Below are positions 2,667 to 37,730 of a stretch of DNA of 38,405 nt, one piece after another. Location: positions 1 through 38,405 of the IMG/VR virus record IMGVR_UViG_3300046028_004103. One strand, given 5' to 3'. The position numbers were made by a program, and so were the translations under genes. This DNA is from a virus. The notes below the pieces were generated by a model that was not told the DNA's origin, did not search any database, and was given only the letters and a program-made list of their open reading frames with translations. Every line of letters starts with the position of its first letter. Position 1 is the first letter of the stretch.

Positions 2667-2695
2667 ATTCTATCGTGCTTACAAATATAATGCAA
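2667..2695 (-). promoter_or_regulatory. Early promoter with TGTAAGCACGA element in the spacer
   Basis: On the minus strand, TTGCAT (2695-2690) and TAGAAT (2672-2667) are 17 bases apart. The spacer ends with the element TGTAAGCACGA (2683-2673), which abuts the -10 box. The same element is in the promoters at 5862-5891 and 37703-37730, and beside the primase operon. Transcription would start near 2660 and read the 63-aa gene and those downstream. Confidence 0.7.
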
Positions 2696-2726
2696 GTGAT
2701 TTATAGGTATAGGGTGTGTATAACTT

Positions 2727-2990
2727 TTAAGCCTTATAAATAGGTGTATTTCTGACTGTTTTTTCAGAAATAGCTATGTAAATGTTGTCATGAATCTCTT
2801 TACTTTTAATACCTAGTATTCTAACTGCTTCTTTAAAAGAATCGTTACTAATATAGTCTCCATACCATTTCTCAACAATATGTTTGTAACCATATGATGA
2901 ATGGTTAGTATTAATTGTTTTTCTTTCTTTTTGTAAACGTAACCATTCTATACAAGCTTTTACTTCGTTATCTCTTATATTGTTTATCAT
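2727..2990 (-). CDS. Hypothetical protein following PrimPol (87 aa)
   Basis: I do not recognise this protein. It is a soluble, basic helical protein (ACIEWLRLQKERK near the N-terminus). It begins four bases after the PrimPol-helicase stop, so it is co-transcribed with it and may be a replication accessory factor; that is inference from position only. A promoter for the next genes lies just downstream. Confidence 0.5.
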   Translation of the reverse strand: MINNIRDNEVKACIEWLRLQKERKTINTNHSSYGYKHIVEKWYGDYISNDSFKEAVRILGIKSKEIHDNIYIAISEKTVRNTPIYKA

Positions 2991-2994
2991 ATAT

Positions 2995-5232
2995 TTAGAA
3001 TATTTCTGGTGGATTAAAATTAATGTCTACCTCTGCTAATGGAAACTTTTTATATGTCGCTGGTGTTGGTACATATAATGCTTTCTTTTTACCGTCTTTT
3101 GTTTTTCTTACTCTTTCTAATTTAAGAACATGTGTAAGAATCGGTGGAATAATATTATTGTGTAATTGATTGAACTTATCTCCTTCACCTGCTACAGCTT
3201 TCACAAATATTTCTTCTAGAGTAAAACCTTCTTCTCTTTCTTCTTTTGTTCTATCCTCATACCAGTCTATAATTCTTGTCTCTTCAAATCTTTCTTGTCT
3301 TCTCATCTCTTGCATTTCTTTTATTTCTTCTGTGTTAAGTCCATCGTATATATTTTCTCCCAAAGTTATTGCATAATAATACGCTTCAGCAAATAACTGT
3401 TCTCTGTTTTCAACTATCCAGTCAATGTTAATTGATGTTCCACATTTTACCGGTAAGTATCTTCTATTACCTGACTCATCACGTAGATATTTTAGATCAT
3501 TAACAGACATTGCAAACACACATCTTCTATAGTTGTCATTTGTAAAATAACCATAAGGATTTCTGTATGTATCAATAGATCGTGTAATAACTGACTTCAT
3601 CAACTTACTTGATGCTCGATCGTGTGTTTCACCTTCTGAAAACTCTACAATCATTTTACCTTTCATCATCATAAAGAAGTCTTTATCAGTAGGGCTTGAT
3701 GTTATTTCATTATGCCACTCCGGAGCCGTAAGCTTATAAAATGACATAGACTTTCTTAACCCTTGTGGTCCTTCAAGGATCAGCACATAATCAAATTTAC
3801 AACCTGGCTCCATAACTCTTTTTACTAATCCTTTTAACCATTGTCTTCCAAAAGCTTTGTATGACTCTTCAAATCCTTCAGTGTTATACGCTTTTTGAAT
3901 CCAAGTATCTAATCTTGGTACACCGTCCCATTTTAATGACTTAAAAAAATCTACTGCTGGATCTACTGCATTTTCATAAGCATATTGAATTAATGCTGAC
4001 TTAACATGATTTTCTTGTGCTGCAATAAAAGCTAAGTCATTGTAGCTATTTGCTAGTACTGATCTAACGATATTAAAATCATTATCAACCGCATTTCTCC
4101 ATTTGCCTTCTTCTAGTATCTCCATTCTGTCAGTCCATAGATTATGCCTAACTTTACCAGCAATAGAATGTGTTACACGTAAAGCAATAAGCACATTCTC
4201 TTTACAGGGGATTATAACTTCCACATATTTACCTTCCTGCTTAACAGTCTTAACAAGAAATTCAGTATTTTTTTTTCTAGGTGTGTATGTTTTTGTACAC
4301 AAATCTATTGCATTAGTTATTGACCTTAATCTGTAGTCTGCTCTTTCTCTTGTTTTCTTTCTATCTCCTAATGGTGAAGATCTCCATATCATCTCCATTT
4401 GTTGAGCATTTTTGCCAGTGTAAAATGCTAGTGTTGATAGGAGTGCCATATCAGCCCTTGACTCATCGTCCTCATACATGCTAGTGTCACCTTCATAGAG
4501 CTTTTTTACGGAATCACCATTCTTAGCTCGAAACATGATTTCAAGTATTTCTTCATTCGTTAGACTTGATGTTGGAACAACTACCTGTACGTTAGTACTG
4601 GTAGTTTTTTCTTCTTTACCCCACGGATAACCAATTACCTCAAGAATTTTTATTAATTCTTCTTCTGTTTTTATAAGTCTTACACTTTTAGGAACTTTAT
4701 CGTACGAATTACCTGTAGTGCATATATATCTTCCATTTGTATAAACTTCATATGGCTCAACAATTCTATTTGCTATAGGTCTAAATTCAAAATCTAGAGC
4801 AAGAAATATATGTAACCCTGTCTCTGACTGAGAGTATTCAGTAAAAGAATTTGAGGCTTTAAGTAATTTTAATATTTCTTCTGATTTTTCTCCAACAACT
4901 TTACCACCAACTACGACATGATCTATATCAATACATAACAACTTTTTGTCTAATACTATTGCTAATCCAGCAAAATTATTTGAACCATTATCAAGTCTTT
5001 CTGATGTTGTTTCAAAATTGCTCCATGTTTTTGGATCAGTAGATGACGCAAATTCCCTTTTTCCATCTTCTGTTATGTAGAAAGGTTTTTTCTCATCTCT
5101 TAAACCTTTCTTTGTCATTGTTTTTGAAAGTCTCCAGTTTATCCATCGACTTTCATTTCCATATTTTATTGCTAAAGGATTATTATATAACATACTCATA
5201 AGCTGTTCTATATTTAAGACCTTCATAAACAA
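2995..5232 (-). CDS. Primase-polymerase/helicase, NrS-1 PrimPol type with VapE-like ATPase (745 aa)
   Basis: The N-terminal domain has the PrimPol catalytic signature: LLCIDIDH (D102, D104), SETGLH ending at H141, and YTNGRYICTTG near 164-174. Residues about 255-312 match the helix-bundle segment that follows the polymerase domain in NrS-1-like proteins (DESRADMALLSTLAFYTG). The C-terminal half is a VapE-type helicase, with GPQGLRKS (488-495, Walker A) and MIVEFSEGE (527-535, Walker B). It should prime and unwind phage DNA at the fork. The reading frame overlaps the 3' end of the upstream gene by 50 bases, so the true start could be one of the later ATGs at residues 3, 12 or 14. It lies beside the candidate origin. 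Confidence 0.88.
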   Translation of the reverse strand: MFMKVLNIEQLMSMLYNNPLAIKYGNESRWINWRLSKTMTKKGLRDEKKPFYITEDGKREFASSTDPKTWSNFETTSERLDNGSNNFAGLAIVLDKKLLCIDIDHVVVGGKVVGEKSEEILKLLKASNSFTEYSQSETGLHIFLALDFEFRPIANRIVEPYEVYTNGRYICTTGNSYDKVPKSVRLIKTEEELIKILEVIGYPWGKEEKTTSTNVQVVVPTSSLTNEEILEIMFRAKNGDSVKKLYEGDTSMYEDDESRADMALLSTLAFYTGKNAQQMEMIWRSSPLGDRKKTRERADYRLRSITNAIDLCTKTYTPRKKNTEFLVKTVKQEGKYVEVIIPCKENVLIALRVTHSIAGKVRHNLWTDRMEILEEGKWRNAVDNDFNIVRSVLANSYNDLAFIAAQENHVKSALIQYAYENAVDPAVDFFKSLKWDGVPRLDTWIQKAYNTEGFEESYKAFGRQWLKGLVKRVMEPGCKFDYVLILEGPQGLRKSMSFYKLTAPEWHNEITSSPTDKDFFMMMKGKMIVEFSEGETHDRASSKLMKSVITRSIDTYRNPYGYFTNDNYRRCVFAMSVNDLKYLRDESGNRRYLPVKCGTSINIDWIVENREQLFAEAYYYAITLGENIYDGLNTEEIKEMQEMRRQERFEETRIIDWYEDRTKEEREEGFTLEEIFVKAVAGEGDKFNQLHNNIIPPILTHVLKLERVRKTKDGKKKALYVPTPATYKKFPLAEVDINFNPPEIF

Positions 5233-5419
5233 AACCTAAACATTCATCAAAAACAACATGCACATAGTTTTCTCCAACAAAAATTTCTCTAACAGTTATC
5301 TGTTTTCTAAAGTTACTCTTATTAAATATGTGATCATGCTTAACCACTTGACCTACAACAAAATCTTCATATCCACTGCCAGTATAGACTCTGACTTCTA
5401 AAACATTTTTTCTTTCCAT
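5183..5419 (-). CDS. Small hypothetical protein leading the replication operon (78 aa)
   Basis: I do not recognise this protein. I chose the ATG at 5419 over the TTG at 5461 because the longer form would cover an inverted repeat in the leader, and ATG starts are the rule here. The product is rich in beta-prone residues and aromatics (VLEVRVYTGSGYEDFVVGQVV). Its 3' end overlaps the PrimPol gene by about 50 bases, so translation of the two is probably coupled. Confidence 0.5.
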   Translation of the reverse strand: MERKNVLEVRVYTGSGYEDFVVGQVVKHDHIFNKSNFRKQITVREIFVGENYVHVVFDECLGFVYEGLKYRTAYEYVI

Positions 5420-5434
5420 AATATATCTTTGGAA

Positions 5435-5494
5435 CTCTGTATACGGGCTACCTATTACCAATCGGTTTAGGTAAAAGATAACCTGTATACAGAG
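5435..5494. repeat. Inverted repeat CTCTGTATAC / GTATACAGAG upstream of the primase operon
   Basis: CTCTGTATAC at 5435-5444 is matched by its complement GTATACAGAG at 5485-5494. The match extends inward with one mismatch, and the two copies are 40 bases apart. The second copy is itself a palindrome (CTGTATACAG). It lies just before the first gene of the leftward arm and resembles a paired operator. Confidence 0.5.
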
Positions 5495-5575
5495 ACCGAT
5501 TTAAACTAACAATCTAAGATGCTGTTAGTCTTATCTAGGTATATCATGGTACTTTTATACTGTAAAGTGGATAAG

Positions 5576-5586
5576 TCGTGCTTACA
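5576..5586 (-). promoter_or_regulatory. TGTAAGCACGA element upstream of the primase operon
   Basis: The minus strand reads TGTAAGCACGA here, oriented toward the primase operon. Unlike the other copies, no good -35 box is visible next to it. A TACAGT/TATAAA stretch follows at about 5555-5562 on the minus strand. It overlaps a DnaA-box-like sequence. Confidence 0.5.
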
Positions 5587-5620
5587 AAACGGACAGGGGG
5601 GGTGTCCAAACGGACAGGGG

Positions 5621-5820
5621 GGGGGTGTCCGCTTAAAACCCTTACAGGCTAACGTATAATCACTAAACGGACACCCCTACACCCCTTTTTAACTATTAAA
5701 GTTTATGTAGTATAATTATCTGTGACTGAATATAGTCGGTGCACCCCCCCTGAGGGGGTGTCAGGGTGTCCACTTTGTGTTTTTAACCTTATTACATAAA
5801 GGTTTTAAGCGGACACCCCC
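5621..5820. repeat. Perfect 20-bp inverted repeat, arms 160 bp apart
   Basis: The arm at 5621-5640 (G5, then TGTCCGCTTAAAACC) is the exact reverse complement of the arm at 5801-5820. The arms enclose the central part of the divergent region, including two TATAAT boxes and a C/G hairpin. A perfect 20-bp match over this distance in non-coding DNA is unlikely by chance and fits a replication or regulatory site. Confidence 0.7.
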
Positions 5821-5861
5821 TAGAGGTAAACTTGACACGAAATGGTATAATATTAAAAAAT

Positions 5862-5901
5862 TTGCTCTGTAAGCACGATAAATGCTACAATGTAAGCACG
5901 A
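5862..5901 (+). promoter_or_regulatory. Rightward promoter with two TGTAAGCACGA elements
   Basis: TTGCTC (5862-5867) and TACAAT (5886-5891) are separated by 18 bases. The spacer begins with TGTAAGCACGA (5868-5878), and a second copy (5891-5901) runs from the end of the -10 box to the A of the ATG at 5901. Transcription would begin at or very near the start codon. A protein bound to both copies would cover the promoter and the start codon. It drives the packaging and structural arm. An extended -10 (TGGTATAAT, 5843-5851) just upstream may be a second promoter. Confidence 0.7.
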
Positions 5902-6083
5902 TGAAAAGTAAATCAGAGGTAAAAAAGGAATACTGGGCATCGAGGTCACAAGAGGAGAGGACAAGCCACGCTAAGATGATGGCAACAGTGAGACATGATA
6001 CAATGAGTGGAGTGGAAAAAGCTAAACTAATTTTACAACTACAACATGGCAAAAGAAGAAAAGTATCACAAGAAGGAGACTAA
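5901..6083 (+). CDS. Small basic protein, first gene of the rightward arm (60 aa)
   Basis: I do not recognise this protein. The start at 5901 is chosen because the longer frame from 5832 would run through the promoter. It is rich in K, R, S and M, begins MKSKSEVKKEYWASRSQEER, and should be largely helical. As the first product from the operator-bearing promoter, next to the small terminase, it could be a DNA-binding regulator or packaging accessory; this is inference from position and charge only. Confidence 0.5.
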   Translation: MKSKSEVKKEYWASRSQEERTSHAKMMATVRHDTMSGVEKAKLILQLQHGKRRKVSQEGD

Positions 6084-6114
6084 AAAACCAAAAAAGAATG
6101 GAGGAAAATGTTAA
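6046..6114 (+). CDS. Possible 22-aa lysine-rich peptide
   Basis: An ATG frame of 22 codons overlaps the 3' end of the gene before it and the 5' end of the small terminase. Nearly half its residues are lysine (MAKEEKYHKKETKKPKK). Overlap on both sides and the small size make this only a possibility. Confidence 0.2.
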   Translation: MAKEEKYHKKETKKPKKNGGKC

Positions 6115-6550
6115 AAAAACAAATCCAAATGGAGCTAATCAGTATGTGATGGATCCTAGACAAGATCTATTCCTTTCATATTACCTTGATCCTAAGAGTG
6201 AAACATTTAGTAATGCATATCAGTCTGGACTTAAAGCTGGGTACTCAGATGAATACTCACAAAACATTACTCGCAACACAACTTCCTGGTTCACGGAATC
6301 TGTCAGCGATGCTCTTTTGATAGCAAAAGCTACTAAAAACCTTGATATTGCACTCGATGGTGGCTTAGATGATCCTGAGAAGGGAGGTAAACCATTACAG
6401 ATGAGAGCTACTGAGTTCTCATTAAAAGGACTACAAAAACAAAAGTGGTCTGAACGCGCAGAAGTAACAGGAAAAGATGGCAAGGATCTCATACCTGAGA
6501 CGATAACTGAGGAGGAACGATTACAAATTAAACAACTATTGGGGAAATGA
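6098..6550 (+). CDS. terS: Terminase small subunit (150 aa)
   Basis: The protein recognises phage DNA for packaging and regulates the large subunit. The N-terminal half has the helix-turn-helix-like pattern seen in many small terminases (ETFSNAYQSGLKAGYSDEYS, residues about 35-54). The C-terminal part is charged (TGKDGKDLIPETITEEERLQ), as expected for the segment that contacts the large subunit. Its stop overlaps the start of the large terminase gene by four bases, giving translational coupling. The overall match is by pattern and position. Confidence 0.8.
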   Translation: MEENVKKTNPNGANQYVMDPRQDLFLSYYLDPKSETFSNAYQSGLKAGYSDEYSQNITRNTTSWFTESVSDALLIAKATKNLDIALDGGLDDPEKGGKPLQMRATEFSLKGLQKQKWSERAEVTGKDGKDLIPETITEEERLQIKQLLGK

Positions 6551-8034
6551 TACGAGAAGAAGCTATTGATGCAATGCTAACCGGACCAGATAGACAACGT
6601 AAGCTATTAGCTGAGGAGTCTTTTGGCTTGTTCGCTGTGTATTACTTCAAAGATTACTTCAAGTATTCATTAGCACCGTATCACTTTGAGATGATTGACT
6701 CGCTTGAGAAGCTCCAGGAAGGTAAGGAGATCAGAGAGCTTGCTTTTATTATGTTCCGTGAGTCAGCAAAGACTACTCTGGCTAAGTTATACGTGATATG
6801 GTTGATCACTTTCAAAAAGAAACTATATATCAACGTGGACAGTGCAGATAAGGAAAACTCAGAACGTATCTTATTCGATGTGGCTTATGAGTTAAGTAAC
6901 AACAAGAGACTTATAAAGGACTATGGTCTTCTATTCTCACGTAAGAAGTCACAGGATGACATTAAACAGACTAAGATCAGTAACTTCATGACTGAGAATG
7001 GTATTCGTGTTGAAGCTCATAGTACACAAGAATCAATGCGTGGACGTATACATCTTAATCAACGTCCTGATTTTCTACTACTTGATGACTTTGAGACTAA
7101 CAAGACAAAGGATAGTGCAGCATATACTAAGCAGATCAGAGAGCATATATCAGAAGCACTCGCTGGTATGAGTCCGGAAGCGTCTATCTTATATCTTGGT
7201 AACTATATATCTGAATATGGTAACGTGCAATTCTTAATTGATAGAGCAAAGAGTGATCATAAGATCAAAGTTCTTAACGTACCAGTGATGGTCAATGGAA
7301 CACCCTCTTGGGAGTCAAAATATGCCCTTACAGACGTAGAAGCAGAACAAACAGGTAAAGTATCACTCGAAGATAAACAAAGGCAGCTTGGGCCATATGT
7401 GTTCTCATATGAAATGATGAATCAGCCAGTCGATGAAGCACAAGCTGAGTTCAAGAAAGAGTGGATGCAGAAAGCAGATATTAATGTAATTGAGCATATG
7501 CAGTACAATACTTTCATAACCATAGATCCAGCAGCAAGCAAGAAGGATCAGGCGGACTTCACTGGTATCTCGATAATTAGAGTCACAAAAGATAACAAGT
7601 GGTATGTATCAACGCAGCAGCTTAAGAAGAATAGTGCTGAGCTTATTGATCATATGTTCTACTTAGTTAAGACATACAAGCCTGAGTTGATAGGTATAGA
7701 AGAGACAACATTTACTTTAGCAGTACAACCTTTCCTCGAAGAAGAGATGGCAAAGCGTGGAGAGTGGTTCGTAGTGACTCCACTCAAACATAATGGCAAT
7801 AATAAGGAGCAACGCATCAGAGGATTGATACCTCGAATGGCTAACAAGGGTATTTTCTTCGTAGGAGACAATGATGCACTGTTCAATGAGATGCGAGTGT
7901 TTCCTCGTGGCATGAATGATGATGTTCTAGACTCTCTTGCATATGCTGAACAGGTGGCGTACAAGCCTTACGATGACAGAATGTTAGACTTGATAGACGA
8001 TACAGAGCCACTTTATAGCTCTATTGGGTTGTGA
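6547..8034 (+). CDS. terL: Terminase large subunit (495 aa)
   Basis: This is the ATP-driven packaging motor and headful/cos nuclease. The Walker-A-like motif is FRESAKTTLAK (70-80), and Walker B is LLLDDFE (177-183). The RNase-H-like nuclease domain shows ITIDPAASKKDQADFTG (D327), LIGIEE (E385/E386) and GMNDDVLDSLAYA (D458/D459, D462). Length and domain order are normal for the family. An HNH gene is inserted immediately downstream, before the portal, a common place for homing endonucleases in phage packaging modules. Confidence 0.93.
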   Translation: MIREEAIDAMLTGPDRQRKLLAEESFGLFAVYYFKDYFKYSLAPYHFEMIDSLEKLQEGKEIRELAFIMFRESAKTTLAKLYVIWLITFKKKLYINVDSADKENSERILFDVAYELSNNKRLIKDYGLLFSRKKSQDDIKQTKISNFMTENGIRVEAHSTQESMRGRIHLNQRPDFLLLDDFETNKTKDSAAYTKQIREHISEALAGMSPEASILYLGNYISEYGNVQFLIDRAKSDHKIKVLNVPVMVNGTPSWESKYALTDVEAEQTGKVSLEDKQRQLGPYVFSYEMMNQPVDEAQAEFKKEWMQKADINVIEHMQYNTFITIDPAASKKDQADFTGISIIRVTKDNKWYVSTQQLKKNSAELIDHMFYLVKTYKPELIGIEETTFTLAVQPFLEEEMAKRGEWFVVTPLKHNGNNKEQRIRGLIPRMANKGIFFVGDNDALFNEMRVFPRGMNDDVLDSLAYAEQVAYKPYDDRMLDLIDDTEPLYSSIGL

Positions 8035-8060
8035 TGCTATGTTTTATATAATAAATTGTA

Positions 8061-8066
8061 TATAAT
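8061..8066 (+). promoter_or_regulatory. -10 box of a leaderless promoter for the HNH gene at 8073
   Basis: TATAAT ends six bases before the ATG, so the transcript should begin on or next to the start codon. The -35 region (about TATGTT at 8038-8043) is poor. The same TATAAT-N6-ATG layout occurs at three other genes here. Confidence 0.55.
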
Positions 8067-8072
8067 GTAGGT

Positions 8073-8633
8073 ATGGATACGAAAAACTGTATCAAGTGTA
8101 ATAAAATTTTTAGTAGGAATAAGAAATACTCTATTTCTCAGTGGAATACAGCATCTTTTTGTAGCAGAAGTTGCTCAGCAATAACTTGTTTGACTGGTAG
8201 GAAACTATCAGAAGAACATAAGACTAGAGTTAGTTTAGCTAATAAAGGTAAAAGAAATACTTTTACTAAAGAGCATATTGAAAATATAAAAAAAGGTGTC
8301 ACTCAAGCTATTAGAGTAAATGCTAAAATTAGAATGACTGGTAGCAGTAATCCTAATTGGAAGAATGGAGCAACAAGTGAAGCTAGAAGAATCAGGTCAA
8401 CATCTGAATACAGAGAATGGAGGAATAAAGTATTCTCTAGAGATAACTATATGTGCATTCATTGTGGATTAAAATTTATTAAAGGTGTAACAGGTACTAT
8501 TAAGTTTAATGCAGATCATATAAAACCATTTGCAACTTATAAAGAATTAAGATTTGATATAAATAATGGTAGAACATTATGTCATCCATGTCATACTAAG
8601 ACAGAGACATATGGTAGACCTAAAAAACAATAA
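8073..8633 (+). CDS. HNH homing endonuclease with NUMOD3 motif (186 aa)
   Basis: The N-terminus has a small zinc-finger-like segment (CIKCNKIF...FCSRSC), followed by a NUMOD3-type DNA-binding helix pattern (TGRKLSEEHKTRVSLANKGK, about 46-65). The C-terminal nuclease has C-I-H-C, then FNADHIKPF and NNGRTLCHPCHTK, which are the HNH histidines and zinc cysteines. It is a free-standing homing endonuclease between terL and the portal gene and is more AT-rich than both. It has its own promoter and ends one base before the portal ATG. Confidence 0.88.
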   Translation: MDTKNCIKCNKIFSRNKKYSISQWNTASFCSRSCSAITCLTGRKLSEEHKTRVSLANKGKRNTFTKEHIENIKKGVTQAIRVNAKIRMTGSSNPNWKNGATSEARRIRSTSEYREWRNKVFSRDNYMCIHCGLKFIKGVTGTIKFNADHIKPFATYKELRFDINNGRTLCHPCHTKTETYGRPKKQ

Positions 8634-8634
8634 T

Positions 8635-12360: not shown

Positions 12361-12810
12361 ATGAAAGATAAACAAAAACAAGCAGAATACAATAAAATGT
12401 ATAGGCTTAAGAATAAAGATAAACTTGATGCTTACTACAAAGAAAAAAGTAAAGATAGAGTTGCTTCTGCATTAAAGTGGCAAAAAGAAAATAAAGAAAA
12501 ACATCTTGCTACTCGTAGAATTTATCAAAAAACTCCAAAAGGTAGATTGAACTCAACAAAATCTAGTGCTAGAACTAGAAAAATTGAGTATCATCTAACA
12601 GATGAAGAAGCACTAAGTATCCTTAATGAAAGATGTTACTATTGTAATAGTTCCAACGTTGTTGGAATAGATAGAATGGATAGCTCAAAAGGATATACAT
12701 TAGATAATTCTGTTGCTTGTTGTTCAATGTGTAATTACATGAAAAATGTATACACAAAGGAAATGTTTATCAACCAATGTATAGTGATTGCAAAAAATCA
12801 TAATTGGTAG
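12361..12810 (+). CDS. Intron-encoded HNH endonuclease (149 aa)
   Basis: The N-terminal two thirds is a basic repeat region with recurring Y-x-K-x-N-K-x-K units. The C-terminal domain has CYYC, then VGIDRMDSSKGYTLDN, then CCSMCNYMK, which is the GIDR-type HNH zinc fold. It probably cuts the intronless capsid gene and so spreads the intron. It resembles the free-standing protein at 14107-14586. Its promoter is inside the intron. Confidence 0.85.
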   Translation: MKDKQKQAEYNKMYRLKNKDKLDAYYKEKSKDRVASALKWQKENKEKHLATRRIYQKTPKGRLNSTKSSARTRKIEYHLTDEEALSILNERCYYCNSSNVVGIDRMDSSKGYTLDNSVACCSMCNYMKNVYTKEMFINQCIVIAKNHNW

Positions 12811-17177: not shown

Positions 17178-17726
17178 ATGGCAACATTAACTGCGGTACA
17201 ATCAAAACAAAAGCATAAATATGATTCATGCTCTTGCGGTGGAGTAAAAGCAAAAAATGCTTCTACTTGTAGTAAGTGTTATCACTTATCTCGTTTCAAA
17301 AATCCTATTTCAAGTAATGGTAAGTATTCTCATAAAAAAGGCAGCTGTATAGATTGTGGGGCAGTTATTAGTGATGTTTATAGGGTATATTGTGGGTCTT
17401 GTTCTCACTTAGGAGAAAGAAGTCATAATTGGAAAGGAGGGGTAACTTCAGAAAATAGATTAGCAAGAGGCATAAAAGAATATAGACTGTGGGTTAATAC
17501 AGTCTTTATAAGAGATAACTTTACATGTCAAAAATATAATATAAGAGGAGGGGATTTAGTAGCTCACCATATTATAAACTTTTCATCTTCACCAGAACTA
17601 CGTTATGAGACTTCAAATGGTATTACATTATCAAAAAAAGCTCACAATGAGTTCCATAAAATATATGGTAGAAATAATAATACAATAGAACAGTTATCAG
17701 AATTTTTAATAAATAAAACAATATGA
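17178..17726 (+). CDS. HNH homing endonuclease with zinc ribbons (182 aa)
   Basis: Two N-terminal cysteine clusters are seen (CSCGG...CSKC and CIDCGAVI...CGSC), then SHNWKGG, EYRLWVNTVFIRDNFTC and VAHHIINF, followed by SNGITLSKKAHNEFHK. The HH and the N...H...H residues of the HNH motif are kept. The usual zinc cysteines of the nuclease are replaced (CQKY, LSKKAH), so the structural zinc there is probably lost. Its stop overlaps the next gene as ATGA. Its first residues (MATLTAV) resemble those of the downstream structural gene (MSTLTGV). It follows TATAAT-N9-ATG. Confidence 0.82.
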   Translation: MATLTAVQSKQKHKYDSCSCGGVKAKNASTCSKCYHLSRFKNPISSNGKYSHKKGSCIDCGAVISDVYRVYCGSCSHLGERSHNWKGGVTSENRLARGIKEYRLWVNTVFIRDNFTCQKYNIRGGDLVAHHIINFSSSPELRYETSNGITLSKKAHNEFHKIYGRNNNTIEQLSEFLINKTI

Positions 17727-27030: not shown

Positions 27031-27032
27031 TC

Positions 27033-30749: not shown

Positions 30750-30750
30750 T

Positions 30751-30951
30751 ATGCAAGACACTAAATTTAATTACTCTCTAAGTCCAGCGATTGTAAATTA
30801 CATTTTATCAGCTCTCGACAGAACACAAATCGCAGGTGTACAGTCAGCTAAAGATTTACTAGCAGTTGTTGAACTACTACAAAATCCTACTAATTCAGAA
30901 GACATTGAAAAGGAACAATTTGAGTCTTTAAAGGCTAAATTTGACAAGTAA
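30751..30951 (+). CDS. Small helical protein (66 aa)
   Basis: I do not recognise this protein. It is mostly helical (AIVNYILSALDRTQ and SEDIEKEQFESLKAKFDK). Its stop shares one base with the start of the amidase gene, and it follows the 89-aa gene by one base. The tight packing marks a fibre-to-lysis operon. Confidence 0.5.
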   Translation: MQDTKFNYSLSPAIVNYILSALDRTQIAGVQSAKDLLAVVELLQNPTNSEDIEKEQFESLKAKFDK

Positions 30952-31508
30952 TGTTAAAACTAACAACAAACTTCGCAAAAGGGACAACCCCTAAAATTGG
31001 ATTTGTTATACATGGAACTTTAGGAAATTATGACGGTGCTGTTGATTGGTTATATCAACCTTGTGCTAAACGTAATCCGGTTACATATTCATCAGCTCAC
31101 TATGTGATTGCAAAGGACGGTAGAATGACACAGTTGGTCAAAAATGAGGACGTAGCGTGGCATGCAGGCACTGTTAGCAATCCAACACCAGAAGCAATAA
31201 AAGTCCTCCCTAAAACGATTCTAGGGACATATAAGAACCCTAACGAGTCATTTATTGGCATAGAGCTTGAGTGGTTTACTGGTGACGCTATTACAGAGGC
31301 ACAATATCGTGAAGTGTGTAATATTATTAATGCTTCTGGAATAACAGATCCTGTACTTCTCTGTCATACACATATAACAGACTTTAAAGCAGACTTTGGT
31401 AATAAGAGTAATGATATTATACTTAATATAAAGAGCAGACTTTCACCTAAACAAGCAAGTAGGGAAGAAGTAAAGGCTCAGATTATTAATCTCATAAATA
31501 GTTTATAA
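30951..31508 (+). CDS. N-acetylmuramoyl-L-alanine amidase endolysin (185 aa)
   Basis: The protein is an Amidase_2-type endolysin that cuts the amide bond between muramic acid and the peptide stem. Visible motifs are FVIHGT (H21), SSAHYVI (H50), WHAGT (H71), FIGIELE (E105) and LLCHTHITDFKADFG (H139/H141 and D148). These supply the zinc ligands and the substrate site. It has no signal peptide, so it needs the holin encoded immediately downstream. The length is normal for the catalytic domain, with a short C-terminal helix. Confidence 0.9.
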   Translation: MLKLTTNFAKGTTPKIGFVIHGTLGNYDGAVDWLYQPCAKRNPVTYSSAHYVIAKDGRMTQLVKNEDVAWHAGTVSNPTPEAIKVLPKTILGTYKNPNESFIGIELEWFTGDAITEAQYREVCNIINASGITDPVLLCHTHITDFKADFGNKSNDIILNIKSRLSPKQASREEVKAQIINLINSL

Positions 31509-31711
31509 TGAAACATTTCTCACTAAGTAAATTAAACTGGGTAGGATTCTTAACAGCTTCTATTGGTATATTAGGTTTAGCTAATCAGCTAGACTTATCC
31601 CCAGAGGCGATGAAGGTCATCATGGCTCTTACTGGTATACTTACCATAATCCTTAGAACATTTTTCTCAGGAACACAATTAACAATTAAAAAGCCGGAAG
31701 GCGATATCTAG
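31508..31711 (+). CDS. Putative holin, two membrane segments (67 aa)
   Basis: Two hydrophobic segments are seen, at about 12-28 (VGFLTASIGILGLANQL) and 37-53 (VIMALTGILTIILRTFF), with a short polar end. It shares one base with the amidase gene. This is the usual size and topology of a small phage holin that opens the inner membrane for the amidase. Confidence 0.72.
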   Translation: MKHFSLSKLNWVGFLTASIGILGLANQLDLSPEAMKVIMALTGILTIILRTFFSGTQLTIKKPEGDI

Positions 31712-31715
31712 TTTT

Positions 31716-31955
31716 ATGCAAACTAAATACGAAATAATGAATAAAGTAACTGGAGAGACAATTCCAGTAGTAGGAATGATGTTTGGTGAGGCAGAAGTTA
31801 CTGTTAGCACAGAAAGTACAACAGACGTAGTGTTCTCAAATATCGGACAGGTAGGTGATCTACAAAACGATGTGTACGCTATCCGTGAAGTTGGTACTCA
31901 TCTTGAGGCTGACGGACAGGGTGTTGTAGAAGACGTTGTCGCTCCTACTGAATAA
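31716..31955 (+). CDS. Small acidic protein, last gene of the rightward arm (79 aa)
   Basis: I do not recognise this protein. It is acidic and rich in V, G and T (TVSTESTTDVVFSNIGQVGD), likely a small beta protein without a membrane segment. A strong terminator follows. Confidence 0.5.
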   Translation: MQTKYEIMNKVTGETIPVVGMMFGEAEVTVSTESTTDVVFSNIGQVGDLQNDVYAIREVGTHLEADGQGVVEDVVAPTE

Positions 31956-31965
31956 ATTGACTTAT

Positions 31966-32000
31966 AAAAAAACTATCCACATGTGTTGGATAGTTTTTTT
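31966..32000. terminator. Strong intrinsic terminator ending the structural arm
   Basis: A 13-bp stem (A7-CTATCC with GGATAG-T7) has a nine-base loop and T tracts on both strands, so it can act in either direction. It ends the plus-strand arm and marks the left edge of the foreign-looking island. Confidence 0.85.
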
Positions 32001-32034
32001 GTTATACTTAAGATAGTAAGTTCATTCTAAAATC

Positions 32035-32055
32035 AATTGTCAACTAATTGTCAAC
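32035..32055. repeat. Tandem repeat AATTGTCAAC x2
   Basis: Two copies of AATTGTCAAC with an 11-base period lie between the terminator and the first island gene. The spacing of about one helical turn suggests an operator at the start of the island. Confidence 0.45.
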
Positions 32056-32067
32056 AAAGGAGAAATT

Positions 32068-32187
32068 ATGTACTGCGTTTTTTGTGGAAAGAAGATTGAC
32101 GAAAGTCGTGGTTACTTCACAATGTTTCTGCGTGGTGTGCGTTACAACTACCACATGGAACACAGACCGACACACATACCTAACTAG
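32068..32187 (+). CDS. Zinc-ribbon small protein, island gene 1 (39 aa)
   Basis: The protein starts MYCVFCGKKIDESRGYF with a C-x-x-C-G knuckle and a YHMEH region. It is the first of several similar proteins here. AAAGGAGA lies at the right distance before the ATG, unlike the SD-less genes of the rest of the genome. Function is unknown; a single zinc-binding knuckle is likely. Confidence 0.55.
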   Translation: MYCVFCGKKIDESRGYFTMFLRGVRYNYHMEHRPTHIPN

Positions 32188-32195
32188 GAGACATT

Positions 32196-32378
32196 ATGAC
32201 CCAAAGACACACGTGCATCTGTTGCGGGGGAATGCTAAAGCAAGGGATGCACATTAAACATACCAAGGAAGGTAATTACCATACTTGGTGTTGGTGGAAA
32301 AAACAGGAGAATAAAGATGTCAAAGCCGTTCAACCCAGTCATCCCAAACTATACACCGAGAAACAAACAAAAGGCTGA
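32196..32378 (+). CDS. Zinc-ribbon small protein, island gene 2 (60 aa)
   Basis: The N-terminus TCICCGGMLKQGMHI, with EGNYHTWCWW downstream, has the C-x-x-C-G...H-x-x-C pattern shared with the neighbouring small proteins. TAGGAGA precedes the ATG. Its 3' end overlaps the start of the next gene by about 60 bases in another frame. Confidence 0.55.
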   Translation: MTQRHTCICCGGMLKQGMHIKHTKEGNYHTWCWWKKQENKDVKAVQPSHPKLYTEKQTKG

Positions 32379-32565
32379 AGAGCCTACTGTGGACTTAAAT
32401 CCATGCTGTGTCTGTGAAAAGACAATTACTACAGGGTACTATGGTCATCATGCAAATGGTGGAACATGCTGTAAGAAATGTGAAGACAATTTTGTTCAAG
32501 GAGAACATCATGAAGCTGCTACTCGCGTTTTTGCTTTCAATGGTGCTATCTACCGCCCAAGCTGA
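32317..32565 (+). CDS. Zinc-ribbon small protein, island gene 3 (82 aa)
   Basis: A disordered basic N-terminus leads to CCVCEKTITTGYYGHHANGG followed by CCKKCEDNF. This is a two-knuckle zinc fold with two C-x-x-C pairs. AGGAGA precedes the ATG. It overlaps the gene before it and the signal-peptide gene after it in different frames. Confidence 0.55.
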   Translation: MSKPFNPVIPNYTPRNKQKAEEPTVDLNPCCVCEKTITTGYYGHHANGGTCCKKCEDNFVQGEHHEAATRVFAFNGAIYRPS

Positions 32566-32758
32566 AAAGCCTGAGCTGGAAGGTGGTGATGTTGTTCGTC
32601 AGGCACTCTGCACTCATGGCAAGCAGAAAGTGCTTTGTGTTGCGGTGAAGAAAGATGACAAGCTTTACGTAGTTGTCATTGACGAGAAAGGTGAACTTTC
32701 CATAACATGGATTGCACCTAAAGGAAATGTGATGGTCTGGTCGCGAGACTCAATCTAG
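32510..32758 (+). CDS. Small secreted/periplasmic protein with signal peptide (82 aa)
   Basis: The start at 32510 gives MKLLLAFLLSMVLSTAQA, a classical signal peptide with an A-Q-A cleavage site, then a short mature chain with one internal disulphide possibility (ALCTHGKQKVLC). It has AAGGAGA before the ATG. The longer frame from 32408 is ruled out because it lacks this signal and ribosome site. Its role is unknown. Export of a small protein by a phage is unusual and could affect the host surface. Confidence 0.6.
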   Translation: MKLLLAFLLSMVLSTAQAEKPELEGGDVVRQALCTHGKQKVLCVAVKKDDKLYVVVIDEKGELSITWIAPKGNVMVWSRDSI

Positions 32759-32768
32759 GAGAAACAAC

Positions 32769-32960
32769 ATGTACTGCCCTCGCTGTGGAGGGATAATCTC
32801 AGAGAAGCAAACGAAAGTTCTTCACGGAGATGTCCCCTATCACTTCTATTGTAGTTTCAAGATATTTGAAGAACAGAAGGAAGCTAGACTTAAGGAGCTG
32901 GAAAATGCAGCTAAAGTTCGACAAGACAAGTGGACTCCTAATCTACTTCGCCCCAAATGA
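32769..32960 (+). CDS. Zinc-ribbon small protein, island gene 5 (63 aa)
   Basis: The sequence MYCPRCGGIISEKQTKVLHG with PYHFYC gives C-x-x-C-G...H-x-x-C. It matches the island genes at 32068 and 32196 in pattern, so they are probably paralogues. A basic helix follows. TAGGAGA precedes the ATG. Confidence 0.55.
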   Translation: MYCPRCGGIISEKQTKVLHGDVPYHFYCSFKIFEEQKEARLKELENAAKVRQDKWTPNLLRPK

Positions 32961-33219
32961 GCTTAAGTTTGCAGTCGCAATGCTCAAAGGTATCAACCAA
33001 GTTGTCAAGATGTCTTTCATACAGGAATGTATTGATGACATTGAGATACACTTACAGCCTAAAAAACAGCTGCCATTCATCAATTACTTTCATCTTTGTA
33101 GATCTTGTTTTAGAACCATTGATGAGAGAGATGAAAACACTATGTGTCTTACCAAAGATGGTGACACTAAATGGAAATGTCGTGTGTGTAAACCACTTAA
33201 CCCGCACAGACCACGATAA
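32905..33219 (+). CDS. Hypothetical protein with C-terminal zinc finger (104 aa)
   Basis: The start ATG at 32905 follows AAGGAG at a good distance and lies inside the 3' end of the gene before it. The middle is a mixed helical domain (FAVAMLKGINQVVKMSFIQE). The C-terminal part has CRSC and CRVC pairs, a zinc-finger layout. It is the last plus-strand gene of the island and ends at a bidirectional terminator. Confidence 0.5.
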   Translation: MQLKFDKTSGLLIYFAPNELKFAVAMLKGINQVVKMSFIQECIDDIEIHLQPKKQLPFINYFHLCRSCFRTIDERDENTMCLTKDGDTKWKCRVCKPLNPHRPR

Positions 33220-33244
33220 AAGACCACTCATAACGAGTGGTCTT
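33220..33244. terminator. Bidirectional intrinsic terminator between convergent genes
   Basis: A perfect 10-bp stem (AAGACCACTC with GAGTGGTCTT) and a five-base loop have T-rich flanks on both strands. It separates the plus-strand island genes from the phosphoesterase gene that ends at 33250 on the other strand. Confidence 0.88.
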
Positions 33245-33249
33245 AATTT

Positions 33250-34293
33250 TTAACCTTCACAGAATAAAGGTCTTTGCCCTACTACACCATACTTGGAATG
33301 AACCAAGAAATAGGCTTGGCATGGTGGCTCTGCACCGAATGAAAGACTGTAGGCGCTAGGTCCGACAGTGCTACCATTAACGATGTATGAACGCCCAATC
33401 GCAGCTGGGGTGTATGTATGGTAATGTCCGCAACATGTAAGATCAGCTTTGATTTGCTTATCCCAACGTTGTGACACAACTTTCCACAAAGGCCCGTGAA
33501 CACCGCCCATACCATCTTGATACCTCCACCCTTGATGCCCATGATTAAACCGTATGGTCTTGTCATAACACTTTAGGTAACTGTGGTAGGAGTTGTCGAG
33601 TTGGAATGTTATACGCTTCTCATGGGCAAAAATAGCCCTTACAGCGTGATACATCATCCACTCCAGAGAATGCTCCTGTTCGCTTGACACATTCACTGGC
33701 TTTGAACTACCACTAAGCCTACTGTGGTTCCCAACTGAGGTTACAACATGTATCTTGAGCTTTGGTTCATTTTGTAAAAGGAACGTCAGACCAGACACAA
33801 TTATATCCTGAGCAAACATACAGGCAGTAATCGGAGGAAACGCAACCGAGGCATCGTGCATGGTAGAGGAAGTGAAGAAATCACCGCCTAACCATACAAC
33901 TAAGTCATCTACATTTGTCTCATGTCTATCAACACGAATAAAACGTAAACAGCGATCAAAGATTGTTGCAACACGTCTTCTAGATATTTCAGGAGTGTGT
34001 TCATTTAATCCATTGACCTTATGCTTTGGTATCAATTCATCGCAATGTATATCAGACAGAAGTAGAAATGCTGTTGCATTACCACTTTTTCCTACTATTT
34101 TATGCTTTATTTCATAAATAGTAGGCGTGTAAGACATGACTTGAAGTGCTTGAGACAGTGCAGTTTGAGACTTTTCAAGCTCATCCTGTATTGCTTTATA
34201 CTTCTTATCAGTGTTTTTAAGCTCATTTGCTTTTGCACGAAGCTGGCTCTCAAGCCTAGCTTCAACTTTCACTTTGCTTGGCTTAGTTGCCAT
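33250..34293 (-). CDS. Calcineurin-like metallophosphoesterase (347 aa)
   Basis: After an N-terminal coiled coil (residues about 10-52), the catalytic domain carries the metal ligands in order: DIHCDE (D81, H83), GGDFF (D138), GNH (N189, H190), HGH (251-253) and GHYH (289-292). This is the calcineurin-like two-metal phosphoesterase fold, related to Mre11/SbcD and phage DNA-processing phosphatases. AAGGAG precedes the ATG, and GC content is about 50% in the lines I counted. The substrate is not known; the coiled coil suggests it forms a complex. Confidence 0.83.
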   Translation of the reverse strand: MATKPSKVKVEARLESQLRAKANELKNTDKKYKAIQDELEKSQTALSQALQVMSYTPTIYEIKHKIVGKSGNATAFLLLSDIHCDELIPKHKVNGLNEHTPEISRRRVATIFDRCLRFIRVDRHETNVDDLVVWLGGDFFTSSTMHDASVAFPPITACMFAQDIIVSGLTFLLQNEPKLKIHVVTSVGNHSRLSGSSKPVNVSSEQEHSLEWMMYHAVRAIFAHEKRITFQLDNSYHSYLKCYDKTIRFNHGHQGWRYQDGMGGVHGPLWKVVSQRWDKQIKADLTCCGHYHTYTPAAIGRSYIVNGSTVGPSAYSLSFGAEPPCQAYFLVHSKYGVVGQRPLFCEG

Positions 34294-34330
34294 TTCATAC
34301 TCCTTAAAAGTTAATGTACTGCCACTTTTA

Positions 34331-34364
34331 ATAGTATACTATATGTAGTATCAAGCAAGATACT
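34331..34364. promoter_or_regulatory. Palindromes upstream of the phosphoesterase gene
   Basis: A perfect 12-bp palindrome ATAGTATACTAT (34331-34342) and a hairpin AGTATC-N6-GATACT (34347-34364) lie 40-70 bases upstream of the ATG. The minus strand also has TTGATA and TATACT-like boxes here, but with poor spacing. They could be an operator over a promoter. No gene is called between 34294 and 34497. Confidence 0.4.
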
Positions 34365-34452
34365 TATACACATATGACTATAAAACACAGAATATTCCTG
34401 ATATATAGGGACATAAAGAAATGGCTTGTCAAGATACAAAAAGAGGATGAAA

Positions 34453-34536
34453 TGGTATAATGGTATGGCAGTAGCAGGATACCTTGCTACTTGCATCTCA
34501 TACCAGAGAGGCATCAAGCGCAATTTGCGCTTTTTG
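34453..34536 (+). ncRNA. Candidate small RNA with extended -10 promoter and intrinsic terminator
   Basis: An extended -10 box TGGTATAAT (34453-34461) is followed at the expected start by a hairpin (about 34468-34494). The hairpin pairs GCAGTAGCAGG with CCTTGCTACTTGC and has two bulges. The RNA would end at a 7-bp GCGC stem (34516-34532) with five Ts. It would be about 70 nt and antisense to the 3' end of the 58-aa gene. No good -35 is visible. The lower part of the terminator is also coding on the minus strand, so this call is tentative. Confidence 0.4.
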
Positions 34537-34674
34537 TTTTGCCCATTTTTTAGTACGAATATCAGGACGCTTTGCCAATGGTAAAAAAGTGCAATCTTTA
34601 CACTGTACTCTTCCTCTGTTATGTAAACTCTTTGTGTCTTTTTTACACCAATAGCATTTACGAAGCCAGGTCAT
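34498..34674 (-). CDS. Zinc-ribbon basic protein, last gene of the leftward arm (58 aa)
   Basis: The ATG at 34674 overlaps the stop of the resolvase-like gene (ATGA), so translation is coupled. The product has two C-x-x-C pairs (CYWC, CKDC) and a basic tail (KRPDIRTKKWAKQKAQ), consistent with a small zinc-ribbon that binds nucleic acid. The 3' end overlaps the candidate RNA on the other strand. Confidence 0.6.
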   Translation of the reverse strand: MTWLRKCYWCKKDTKSLHNRGRVQCKDCTFLPLAKRPDIRTKKWAKQKAQIALDASLV

Positions 34675-35036
34675 AGTTGTATTACTTCTATAGCTATCTC
34701 TTCTGCTCTATCACTTGTTATTCCTTTTGTCTCATGTAAGAAATCATCAATATCTATAATAGCCATGATCTTTGGATAACGGATCACAATGTACGCATAT
34801 GCATTTCTCATAAAGATATAGTCTGCTATACCGGTAGTACCTACAGTACGCATCAGGTTACCTTTGTCTCCCTTACAAGCAAGAGCATGGTTACGCTGTT
34901 CCTCTTTTAACTCACGAAGGGAGAAAGTGTTAGAACCTCTGGTGTCTTTCATCTCAAACGTGCAACTATCAAACTTCTTGTAGTTAGCTTTTAACCAGTG
35001 GCGAAATATAAGTGATGAATTAGCTTCTTGTTTCAT
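34671..35036 (-). CDS. RecU-like Holliday-junction resolvase/PD-(D/E)XK nuclease (121 aa)
   Basis: The core FDSCTFEMKDTRGSNTFSLR contains an E-x-K pair in the position of the RecU-type catalytic motif. It is followed by LKEEQRNHALAC, the conserved Q-containing helix, and beta strands AYIVIRYPK. It would resolve branched DNA before packaging. It overlaps the helicase gene by four bases and is coupled to the 58-aa gene. Family identity is from motif order only. Confidence 0.62.
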   Translation of the reverse strand: MKQEANSSLIFRHWLKANYKKFDSCTFEMKDTRGSNTFSLRELKEEQRNHALACKGDKGNLMRTVGTTGIADYIFMRNAYAYIVIRYPKIMAIIDIDDFLHETKGITSDRAEEIAIEVIQL

Positions 35037-36271
35037 ATTACTTTAGTATACGTTGCTAGTTGAAAGTCATTCTTTGACTCTAGTGCTTTATAAACAGCTT
35101 TGTCTATCTCACCGGAGAGTAAATATACATACAAATTTTTCTGTAGGTTATTAATTCTTAGGGTTCTTCCTTGTGACTGATTCAAGTCCACATAGGAATA
35201 GCTCTGTGAGGCGTAAATTGTGCATCTGAACGACGGTAACTCGTATCCTGCACTAATTGTACTTTGGATTATTACAACGCAGTCTGATAGGCTTTCTGCA
35301 AGGATCATAGCTTCTCCACGGTCCTTTGTAGCTCCGGTAATAGTGATAACAGGACAAATGGAAGTAAAGTGCTTCTCTATCTGCTCAATCTGCTCTGTAT
35401 ACTTTGCGAATACTAACACCTTACCGAACTCTTCACGTAGGTTTTCTATTACTTCTAGCTTACCTGTAGCAAAGACTTCTGACTTTGAGTATTCATCACC
35501 CTTAAGCACTCCTTGCTCTATCTGGTGCTTCTTACCTGTAGCAACAAGTGGATCTGGATATTCAAATGGTATCTCTCGTAGTCTGTCTATCTGCTGCTCA
35601 GTAAGTGGTACATTAACTATCTTATGTGTCTGATCTGGTACATCTACCCAGTCATCGAGTTTTCCGGTAACTCCGAGTGACTGTACAACTTTTCCTAGTC
35701 TTTCTTGTGTCGCTGTGTCTTTCTTAGGCATCCAGATCTCTCTATGATTCATATTCACAGGTGTATAGTAAATAGACCTGAATTGATAATAGTCCCAGTC
35801 CTTACCTAGTAGTAGCCCTGTAGCATATACAGCAAGAGGATTCTTTACCGGTGTTGCTGTTAGTAGGTAAAGTCTATCAGGGTTAGTCTGACGTATGAAG
35901 TTGATACAAGCATCAAAGATCTGCGAGGTCTTTGGCTTCGGTTGCTTGTTCTTGTATACCAGTGACGGTTGTATACCTGTAAGATTATGTATTTCTTCAA
36001 GAATAACAGTATCGTATCTACAATATTTATCCCAGTCTCTTCTAAAATCTTCTTTAGATACAACTGTTAGATCTAAATTTATATTAAGTTTTTCTAGATT
36101 CTTTTCCCATACTTTATCATCACGAACAATCTTAGGTACTACTACTAAAGTTTTTCCTCTTGATAACATTAACGTAGTGGCAGTTTTTCCGGATCCGGTA
36201 GACCAAAAAATACCAGTTTTTTTAGGATCTAAATTTATTATATCCTGTTGATGTTTATATAGTTGTAGCAT
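35033..36271 (-). CDS. Superfamily 2 DNA helicase (412 aa)
   Basis: It carries the SF2 motifs: GSGKT (Walker A, 26-30), LEEIH (DEAH-like Walker B with Glu in the first position, 91-95), TATP (motif III, 138-141) and a C-terminal QSQGRTLRI (motif VI). Its length is typical of phage replication/recombination helicases. The start at 36271 lies inside the end of the upstream endonuclease gene. It works with the PrimPol, ssDNA-binding and resolvase proteins of the same arm. Confidence 0.87.
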   Translation of the reverse strand: MLQLYKHQQDIINLDPKKTGIFWSTGSGKTATTLMLSRGKTLVVVPKIVRDDKVWEKNLEKLNINLDLTVVSKEDFRRDWDKYCRYDTVILEEIHNLTGIQPSLVYKNKQPKPKTSQIFDACINFIRQTNPDRLYLLTATPVKNPLAVYATGLLLGKDWDYYQFRSIYYTPVNMNHREIWMPKKDTATQERLGKVVQSLGVTGKLDDWVDVPDQTHKIVNVPLTEQQIDRLREIPFEYPDPLVATGKKHQIEQGVLKGDEYSKSEVFATGKLEVIENLREEFGKVLVFAKYTEQIEQIEKHFTSICPVITITGATKDRGEAMILAESLSDCVVIIQSTISAGYELPSFRCTIYASQSYSYVDLNQSQGRTLRINNLQKNLYVYLLSGEIDKAVYKALESKNDFQLATYTKVI

Positions 36272-36875
36272 ATATTTGTTTTAAAACATTTTCTAAGTTA
36301 GACATCACTTCTTTATTTTTAAATCTAATAATTGTCCATCCTAAAGTATTTAAAAAATCTGTTTTCTTTTTATCTTGTTCTTTTCTAATAAATAAATTAT
36401 GACTTTCTCCATCCACTTCTATACCAAGCATCATTTTAGGATTAGCTATATCTATTTTATAACAAGTTGGATATTTTTTATTTACCTTTGGTTCTTTAGT
36501 TGGAACTACGTGTTCTGCATACCATCCTTCTCCTAATGCTGTTAGTAAAACTCTTTGTGGTATTGGCATTTCCTCTCCATTTCCACCTCTTACTCTTGGT
36601 TTTGTGCCTAATGCTTTATTTGTTGCTATAGCTTTTTCTTTTACTCCTTCCATCCACATTGGATTATTAACTTTCATTCTCTCAGAAGAAGCTTTAGATA
36701 TTTTTTCTATATTATCTTTTACTACTTTTTTAAATATATTACTTTTATGTTTTTTATGACATTCATCTGAACAAGTTTTCTTATAATCTCCAAATAATCC
36801 ACCATGATGCCAGTATCTTTGTGTTGGTTTACTACATATTAAACATAATAATGGTAATTTTTTACTTATCTTCAT
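36255..36875 (-). CDS. Vsr/DUF559-type homing endonuclease (206 aa)
   Basis: The N-terminus has zinc-finger cysteines (CLIC and CSDEC). The middle resembles NUMOD-like DNA-binding segments (SSERMKVNNPMWMEGVKEKA). The C-terminal nuclease has IDIANPKMMLGIEVDGESHN and DFLNTLGWTIIRFKNKEV, a Vsr/DUF559-like PD-(D/E)XK fold. It sits between the ssDNA-binding gene and the helicase gene and overlaps the helicase start by 17 bases. It is AT-rich and has its own leaderless promoter, as expected of a mobile homing gene. Confidence 0.8.
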   Translation of the reverse strand: MKISKKLPLLCLICSKPTQRYWHHGGLFGDYKKTCSDECHKKHKSNIFKKVVKDNIEKISKASSERMKVNNPMWMEGVKEKAIATNKALGTKPRVRGGNGEEMPIPQRVLLTALGEGWYAEHVVPTKEPKVNKKYPTCYKIDIANPKMMLGIEVDGESHNLFIRKEQDKKKTDFLNTLGWTIIRFKNKEVMSNLENVLKQIYATTI

Positions 36876-36881
36876 ACTCCT

Positions 36882-36910
36882 ATTATATAATGTTTATGTG
36901 CATAATGCAA
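36882..36910 (-). promoter_or_regulatory. Leaderless promoter of the Vsr-type endonuclease gene
   Basis: On the minus strand, TTGCAT (36910-36905) and TATAAT (36887-36882) are exactly 17 bases apart, and the ATG at 36875 follows after six bases. AGGAGT lies between them but would be too close and not transcribed as a leader. Confidence 0.7.
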
Positions 36911-36930
36911 CTGGTATTATAATCTTATTC

Positions 36931-36949
36931 CTATCCCCATAAGGGATAG
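36931..36949. terminator. Stem-loop after the ssDNA-binding gene
   Basis: CTATCCC and GGGATAG form a 7-bp stem with a five-base loop, just after the stop of the upstream gene. There is no T tract on the minus strand, so it may pause or protect RNA rather than terminate. Confidence 0.4.
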
Positions 36950-36956
36950 AGTAAAA

Positions 36957-37643
36957 CTAGAAATCTCCTTTCTTAGCTGCACCTGTAACTGGATCGTAAC
37001 TAGCATCTTGTGACCAATCAGTATCTTCAAGCTTAAGTGTTTCAGTAATCTTCTCAATCATGAATAGTCTTGCTTGCATGAAGTACATCTTCCACTCATC
37101 CGTACTGATAGTCTTACCAGCCTTAGCCTTTGGAGCATCAGGATAACCATTGATATTCTTAGTCTCCTTACCTTCCCCCTCTTGGAAGTATGACTTTAGT
37201 TTATCACCTTGTGGCTTACCATCTTCACCAATAAAGAAGTTCTGATAGACTGACATACCTTTGCGAGTCTTACCTTTATCATCAATAAAAGAATACGGTA
37301 CTAACTTTACAGGTAGATCCATATTCACAGCGAGTAACTTCTTCATCATGTCTTCTCCGAATGGTTGCGCTGTTGCTAGTGAAATAATAAGTGGCTCATC
37401 TTCACCATCAGTGATCGTGATATTGAGATTCTTACCGTAGTCACCTTCGTGGAACTCTACTTTTGAAATGAGTCCTGATACTTCAGTGATTACTTTCTCC
37501 CACTTGAAACCTTCCTCACCGGTAGATGTCTTGTACACTCTTTTACGAGCACCTTCTGTACCTTCATCTACTGTCATGTGGAACTTACCGTCTGCGAGAA
37601 CTGATAAAAATGTACCCTGATCCACTGCTTCTTTATATGCCAT
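36957..37643 (-). CDS. Probable single-stranded DNA-binding protein (228 aa)
   Basis: The N-terminal 130 residues have an OB-fold-like series of beta strands (KFHMTVDEGTEGARKRVYK, KNLNITITDGEDEPLIISLA). The C-terminus has an acidic tail that could bind partners, as in phage SSBs. It lies downstream of the TGTAAGCACGA promoter and starts the group with helicase and resolvase genes. The role is inferred from fold and neighbours; I see no signature that would exclude other OB-fold functions. Confidence 0.55.
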   Translation of the reverse strand: MAYKEAVDQGTFLSVLADGKFHMTVDEGTEGARKRVYKTSTGEEGFKWEKVITEVSGLISKVEFHEGDYGKNLNITITDGEDEPLIISLATAQPFGEDMMKKLLAVNMDLPVKLVPYSFIDDKGKTRKGMSVYQNFFIGEDGKPQGDKLKSYFQEGEGKETKNINGYPDAPKAKAGKTISTDEWKMYFMQARLFMIEKITETLKLEDTDWSQDASYDPVTGAAKKGDF

Positions 37644-37702
37644 ATATTTATTTTGAGTAGTCCATTGGACAACTGATTATTTGTTTAATTACCCACTTCT
37701 TT

Positions 37703-37730
37703 AGTATATCTTATCGTGCTTACAAGTCAA
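37703..37730 (-). promoter_or_regulatory. Promoter with TGTAAGCACGA element, for the ssDNA-binding gene
   Basis: On the minus strand, TTGACT (37730-37725) abuts TGTAAGCACGA (37724-37714), and TATACT (37708-37703) completes a 16-base spacer. Transcription would start near 37696, giving a leader of about 50 bases. This copy has the best -35 and -10 boxes of the four sites. Confidence 0.75.

Follow-up and report, generated by a model that had tools for sequence, protein, structure and literature searches.

Copies of an 11-base element at the main transcription units

The virus record examined here, 38,405 bp analysed over its whole length and referred to as the window, contains five copies of one 11-base element, TGTAAGCACGA, and raises the question of whether a single regulator acts through this element on all of the main promoters of the phage and, if so, which protein this regulator might be. 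The window is the whole virus record and carries a 126-bp direct terminal repeat (1-126 and 38278-38403), which makes a complete circularised genome probable, with a leftward arm that passes through the ends. Four main transcription units are present: a leftward small-gene unit, a primase-helicase unit, a terminase/structural unit and an SSB-like/helicase/exonuclease unit. The first of these runs through the record ends into a gene (37982-38368) that continues across them and has a PD-(D/E)XK nuclease match below threshold. The structural arm contains HNH or endonuclease VII-like genes at 8073-8633 and 12361-12810 (clear matches) and at 17178-17726 (a weak match).

All five copies are exact (11/11), with the coordinates and strands claimed in the original prediction. 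Copy 1 (2673-2683, minus strand) lies in a promoter spacer and abuts the −10 box of the leftward small-gene unit; copy 2 (5576-5586, minus strand) is upstream of the primase-helicase unit; copy 3 (5868-5878, plus strand) is in the promoter spacer of the rightward terminase/structural unit; copy 4 (5891-5901, plus strand) spans the presumed start of transcription as well as the start codon (ATG) of the first gene of that unit; and copy 5 (37714-37724, minus strand) is within the promoter of the unit containing the SSB-like, helicase (35033-36271) and exonuclease (33250-34293) genes. Copies 3 and 4 form a pair with a spacing of 23 bp. All four main units are headed by element copies, and none of the five copies lies within a recognised gene, copy 4 ending at the A of the ATG (5901). 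The earlier claims that one copy adjoins the primase operon, that another overlaps the start of the rightward arm and that the copies point in the direction of transcription (5/5) were all confirmed.

An order-3 Markov model predicted ∼0.016 copies of TGTAAGCACGA versus the five observed, and an equal frequency among 11-mers was reached only by a CACCACCACCA word. When intergenic 10-mers were ranked blindly by recurrence, the element came first, at a level reached in 0 of 100 simulations. There were no one-mismatch copies of TGTAAGCACGA in the record, and the seven two-mismatch matches were at chance level (12 matches in total versus 10 expected). As read from the sequence, TTGTAAGCACGA is not palindromic, with pairing at only three of six positions. 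No second viral contig with two copies of TGTAAGCACGA 5 to 30 bp apart was found, and 35 IMG/VR matches to an extended element, with one copy each, were taken as chance.

Three copies had been placed within −35/−10 spacers of 16 to 18 bases, and this was literally right. The predicted promoters are TTGCAT-17-TAGAAT around copy 1 (2667-2695, minus strand; 8/12 consensus positions), TTGCTC-18-TACAAT around copy 3 (5862-5891, plus strand; 8/12) and TTGACT-16-TATACT around copy 5 (37703-37730, minus strand; 10/12), only the last of which reached the 9/12 limit of the consensus promoter scan; as a class, promoter-like matches were not above chance at the element sites. The predicted promoters look sigma-70-like; beyond these three, the promoter boxes are unclear. 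As the TACAAT box ends 9 nt ahead of the ATG of the first rightward gene, the transcript of this gene is probably leaderless or nearly so. Gene starts in this phage mostly have an AT-rich stretch upstream and no clear Shine-Dalgarno sequence, a possible clue to the host group.

The distance from the element to the predicted −10 box was 0 nt for copy 1, 16 nt for copy 2, 7 nt for copy 3 and 5 nt for copy 5, with copy 4 located downstream of the box. Element copies were, therefore, not at a fixed distance from the −10 box or transcription start, which speaks against both a core promoter element and a position-dependent activator. Variable spacing of this type fits blocking of initiation by a protein bound at these putative sites.

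A concertedly changed element in the nearest relative

There were zero nucleotide matches to this phage in INPHARED, terminase identities were at most 27% among the matches listed and a search of annotated phages with the product of the first rightward gene gave no usable match; by these comparisons, no annotated phage is near this one. Terminase family matches were found in three genome bins, labelled Gracilibacteria (61%), Termititenax (49%) and Bacteroidetes (47%), and any host assignment from these bins is a guess.

The collections searched contained one close relative, L041/G001, whose terminase and capsid are 92% identical to those of the window phage; several of the other genomes compared are fragments. 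Absence of the element from the promoters of close relatives had been named as a refutation of the original prediction, and, taken literally, the exact 11-mer does fail in this way. Exact TGTAAGCACGA was absent from L041/G001, but a version shifted by one base, TRTATGCACRA, was present four times, within the regions covered, at places homologous to the promoters of the window phage. The copies at 3265-3275 and 5271-5281 of L041 correspond to copy 1 (2673) and copy 2 (5576), respectively, and a pair at 6058/6081 is 23 bp apart, as are copies 3 and 4. Relative to those copies, the L041 pair is flipped in orientation and displaced upstream with respect to the −10 box. Three of the four copies in this relative are oriented with transcription, while the fourth points away from the terminase unit. 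Two directly abut good −10 boxes, such boxes, including that of copy 1, being TAGAAT, TATACT and TATAAT, and the relative has a promoter, TTGCGT-16-TATACT, of the same form as the copy-1 promoter.

Every copy in L041/G001 exhibits the same A to T change relative to TGTAAGCACGA. Such a concerted change needs a common cause, for example a regulator with changed specificity. Given a copy number far above chance, placement only at promoters and a concerted change at homologous promoters of a 92%-related phage in which the 23-bp pair has been kept though flipped and moved, TGTAAGCACGA is very probably an operator.

More distant genomes contain unrelated repeated words of their own, namely, TTATCCACACCT in G003/G004, TTATTGCTTGTG in G005 and CTTGTATAAG in G014. 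The top word of a blind search was significant in five of six genomes bearing a homolog of the first rightward gene versus 2 of 13 genomes without one; the search was unsuccessful in G014. The word found in G002 was AGCTACTTTA, and that of G009, TATGGCAAAA, was set aside as probable start-codon context.

Two further differences in this region were observed. The primase-helicase of the window phage is a single 745-residue protein (2995-5232), and in G001 a 438-residue helicase part comes first and a 172-residue zinc-finger primase-like protein stands separately behind it (L041 3324-5155). Between the primase side and the first rightward gene, there is a phage-specific family of inverted repeats, perhaps a replication origin: GGGGGTGTCCG at 5590-5830 of the window, GGGTGGTACA at L041 5300-5560 (G001) and GGTAGGCAAGC at L162 4488-4730 (G003).

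p61, a candidate regulator

The rightward unit begins with an unannotated gene (5901-6083, plus strand) for a basic protein of 60 residues, termed p61, whose ATG is overlapped by copy 4. Homologs of p61 were detected in G001, G003, G004, G005 and G014, with the homology in G005 being weak (E about 4e-4). No other protein family of the window was found in all five of these genomes, each of which has its own element directly upstream of the p61 gene. This makes p61 a candidate for the protein binding the element; the link was noticed after the elements had been found, and the hypothesis was formed with data already seen. The p61 gene opens the terminase-side unit in the window, G001, G014 and, it appears, G003/G004, and its linkage to the operators may, therefore, be incidental. 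In G005, the sole genome with p61 elsewhere, the gene is kilobases away from the terminase genes.

The predicted structure of p61 consists of three helices (pLDDT 87), and helices were confidently predicted for two diverged members of this basic family. Searches of Pfam, PHROG, NCBIfam and PDB gave no convincing match to p61, and a PDB fold search was empty, such that no DNA-binding fold was recognised. A p61 profile had one weak match in Patescibacteria genomes, inside a 363-amino-acid frame; the profile was too diverged for a scan of the collections, and scans with single p61 proteins returned no contigs beyond those already known. On the comparative evidence, p61 is the best candidate for the regulator, and whether this putative binder fills the role is an evenly balanced judgment.

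Host DnaA boxes at the same promoters

Exact DnaA boxes (TTATACACA) are present at two of the four main promoters. One box (2715-2723, minus strand) is 19 nt upstream of the copy-1 −35 element, a gap that is also 19 nt at the counterpart of copy 1 in G001, and the other (37731-37739, minus strand) is directly upstream (0 nt) of the −35 element of the copy-5 promoter. A near match, TTATCCACT (5566-5574), lies beside copy 2, and a further exact box is located at 36897-36905; the late promoter has no DnaA box. In all five genomes tested, DnaA boxes were found within 70 nt of elements (9 versus about 0.3 expected). The box overlaps the element in G003/G004, and the two signals are, therefore, not independent in these genomes.

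Across the terminase-related group, 30 of 40 TTATCCACA boxes were intergenic versus 9.0 expected, and 14 of the 40 led into a sigma-70-like promoter versus 14 of 405 permuted boxes. None of 13 boxes in two control phage sets was intergenic. Gaps between the box and the −35 element gathered near 0 to 3, 8 to 9 and 17 to 19 nt, which looks like helical phasing, though few boxes are involved and these groups were recognised only afterwards. A strict pattern of DnaA box plus promoter occurred five times in 287 Patescibacteria genomes and not at all in a reversed control, and at least one of these five cases precedes, by our reading, a phage-like gene; hence, chromosomal promoters of this form are not common in Patescibacteria. 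Judging by these boxes, host DnaA is, on balance, a likely second input at these promoters and would act as an activator.

Alternative explanations for the element

Another phage regulator, instead of p61, could bind the element as its operator, with p61 doing something else. This is a rather doubtful explanation, for which one option is a 63-residue protein (2427-2618) encoded by the first gene, directly behind copy 1. That protein is kept in G001 (62%), and p61 itself lacks a recognised DNA-binding fold. However, the 63-residue protein is absent from G003, G004, G005 and G014, all of which have repeated elements, and its best Pfam match, weak and below the cut-off, is to an anti-sigma protein; another option, an 87-residue protein (2727-2990), was not found in G001.

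Binding by a host transcription factor, with the phage borrowing host regulation, is improbable. A family search of the scanned proteins recognised no repressor, in agreement with the original prediction, and the host DnaA sites that mark these promoters make host control plausible in principle. The DnaA box is constant, though, while every copy of the element is changed between two close phages and the elements of other phages are unrelated, so a different host regulator would be needed for each phage. Of the two sources of the regulator originally envisaged, a small phage protein fits the comparative evidence and a host factor explains the element poorly.

Similarly improbable is a role in the core promoter or in activation, for instance as an extended −10 element read by a sigma factor or polymerase of the phage, or as a site for a positive factor at a fixed place. 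Copy 1 and two G001 copies do abut good −10 boxes and every window copy is aligned with transcription, but distances to the −10 box ranged from 0 to 16 nt with one copy downstream, the paired copies at the G001 terminase promoter have the opposite orientation and the scanned proteins yielded no recognisable sigma factor or RNA polymerase. A role as replication iterons or recombination sites is highly improbable, as two copies are kilobases off at other unit heads and the repeat-rich, origin-like stretch (5590-5830) flanked by the other three has separate, different repeats.

Proposed mechanism and comparison with known systems

From the set of elements, their promoter-wide placement, the co-diverged version, the p61 linkage and the DnaA boxes, we infer protein binding, repression and roles for p61 and DnaA. 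There is a strong likelihood that the regulator acting on the putative operator is phage encoded, and it is probably mainly a repressor. Taken as a whole, the reading that we favor, by a modest degree of belief, is that a phage-encoded global repressor, most likely p61, uses TGTAAGCACGA as its operator, with DnaA input. The regulator would bind single or paired asymmetric sites overlapping the −35 region, spacer, −10 box or start and would thereby block initiation at the four main promoters. As the first gene behind the paired operators, p61 would repress its own promoter as well as the replication, recombination and structural units, and operator and p61 would diverge together between phages. 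Host DnaA at the upstream boxes of two of the four promoters would probably aid activation. For the originally predicted single phage-wide regulator, the presence of the element at all main units and its co-divergence at homologous places in a relative stand in favor, and the switching and its direction remain putative.

A more specific and tentative possibility is a two-input arrangement at the main promoters of a group of uncultured phages, in which host DnaA acts upstream of the −35 element and the phage-specific operator is bound by p61 as a tiny three-helix protein of an undescribed DNA-binding family, whose specificity evolves with the operators; DnaA would then tie phage transcription to the host replication initiator. 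If true, these proposals would provide a regulator and operators for phages without cultured hosts, a case of operator-regulator co-evolution testable with ready pairs from several phages and evidence that a whole phage group recruits the host replication initiator to its promoters. Repeats in front of small unannotated proteins at operon heads could also flag regulators.

The operators and stoperators of Cluster A mycobacteriophages (L5, Bxb1 and TipsytheTRex) are 13-bp asymmetric sites dispersed through the genome and oriented with transcription; there are >20 such sites, some in promoters and most away from them, bound by a two-domain helix-turn-helix (HTH) Rep repressor of ∼180 residues, and the motif and repressor specificity diverge jointly among related phages (PMC9283540, PMC6550527). 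The element described here resembles these sites in being short and asymmetric, with five identical 11-bp copies, and in its orientation with transcription (5/5). It differs in having only five sites, all at promoters or unit heads, in having zero one-mismatch sites and in the flipped orientation at one G001 promoter. No Rep-type N-terminal HTH repressor was matched among the scanned proteins, which included some but not every small ORF. This element was not assigned to the Cluster A systems: the sites are too few, all those found are at promoters and an HTH repressor was not detected.

Phage P1 uses a single repressor, C1 (∼280 residues), at 17-bp asymmetric operators located at many separate promoters. 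The proposed use of one repressor with asymmetric operators at many promoters is similar, whereas no repressor of ∼280 residues was found in this phage. In lambda, the CI and Cro operators are palindromes confined to a single control region. Repeated sites overlapping the −35 and −10 elements at a spacing of about two helical turns are common to lambda and the present phage, but the sites here are asymmetric and occur at all four unit heads. The DnaA boxes also have a counterpart in lambda, in which DnaA stimulates transcription at pR and the origin via RNA polymerase, according to works cited in PMC3985674. In lambda host DnaA acts at a phage promoter, as it probably does here; the lambda effect, as cited in that source, is at replication-origin promoters, whereas the exact boxes described here lie upstream of several separate promoters throughout a phage group.
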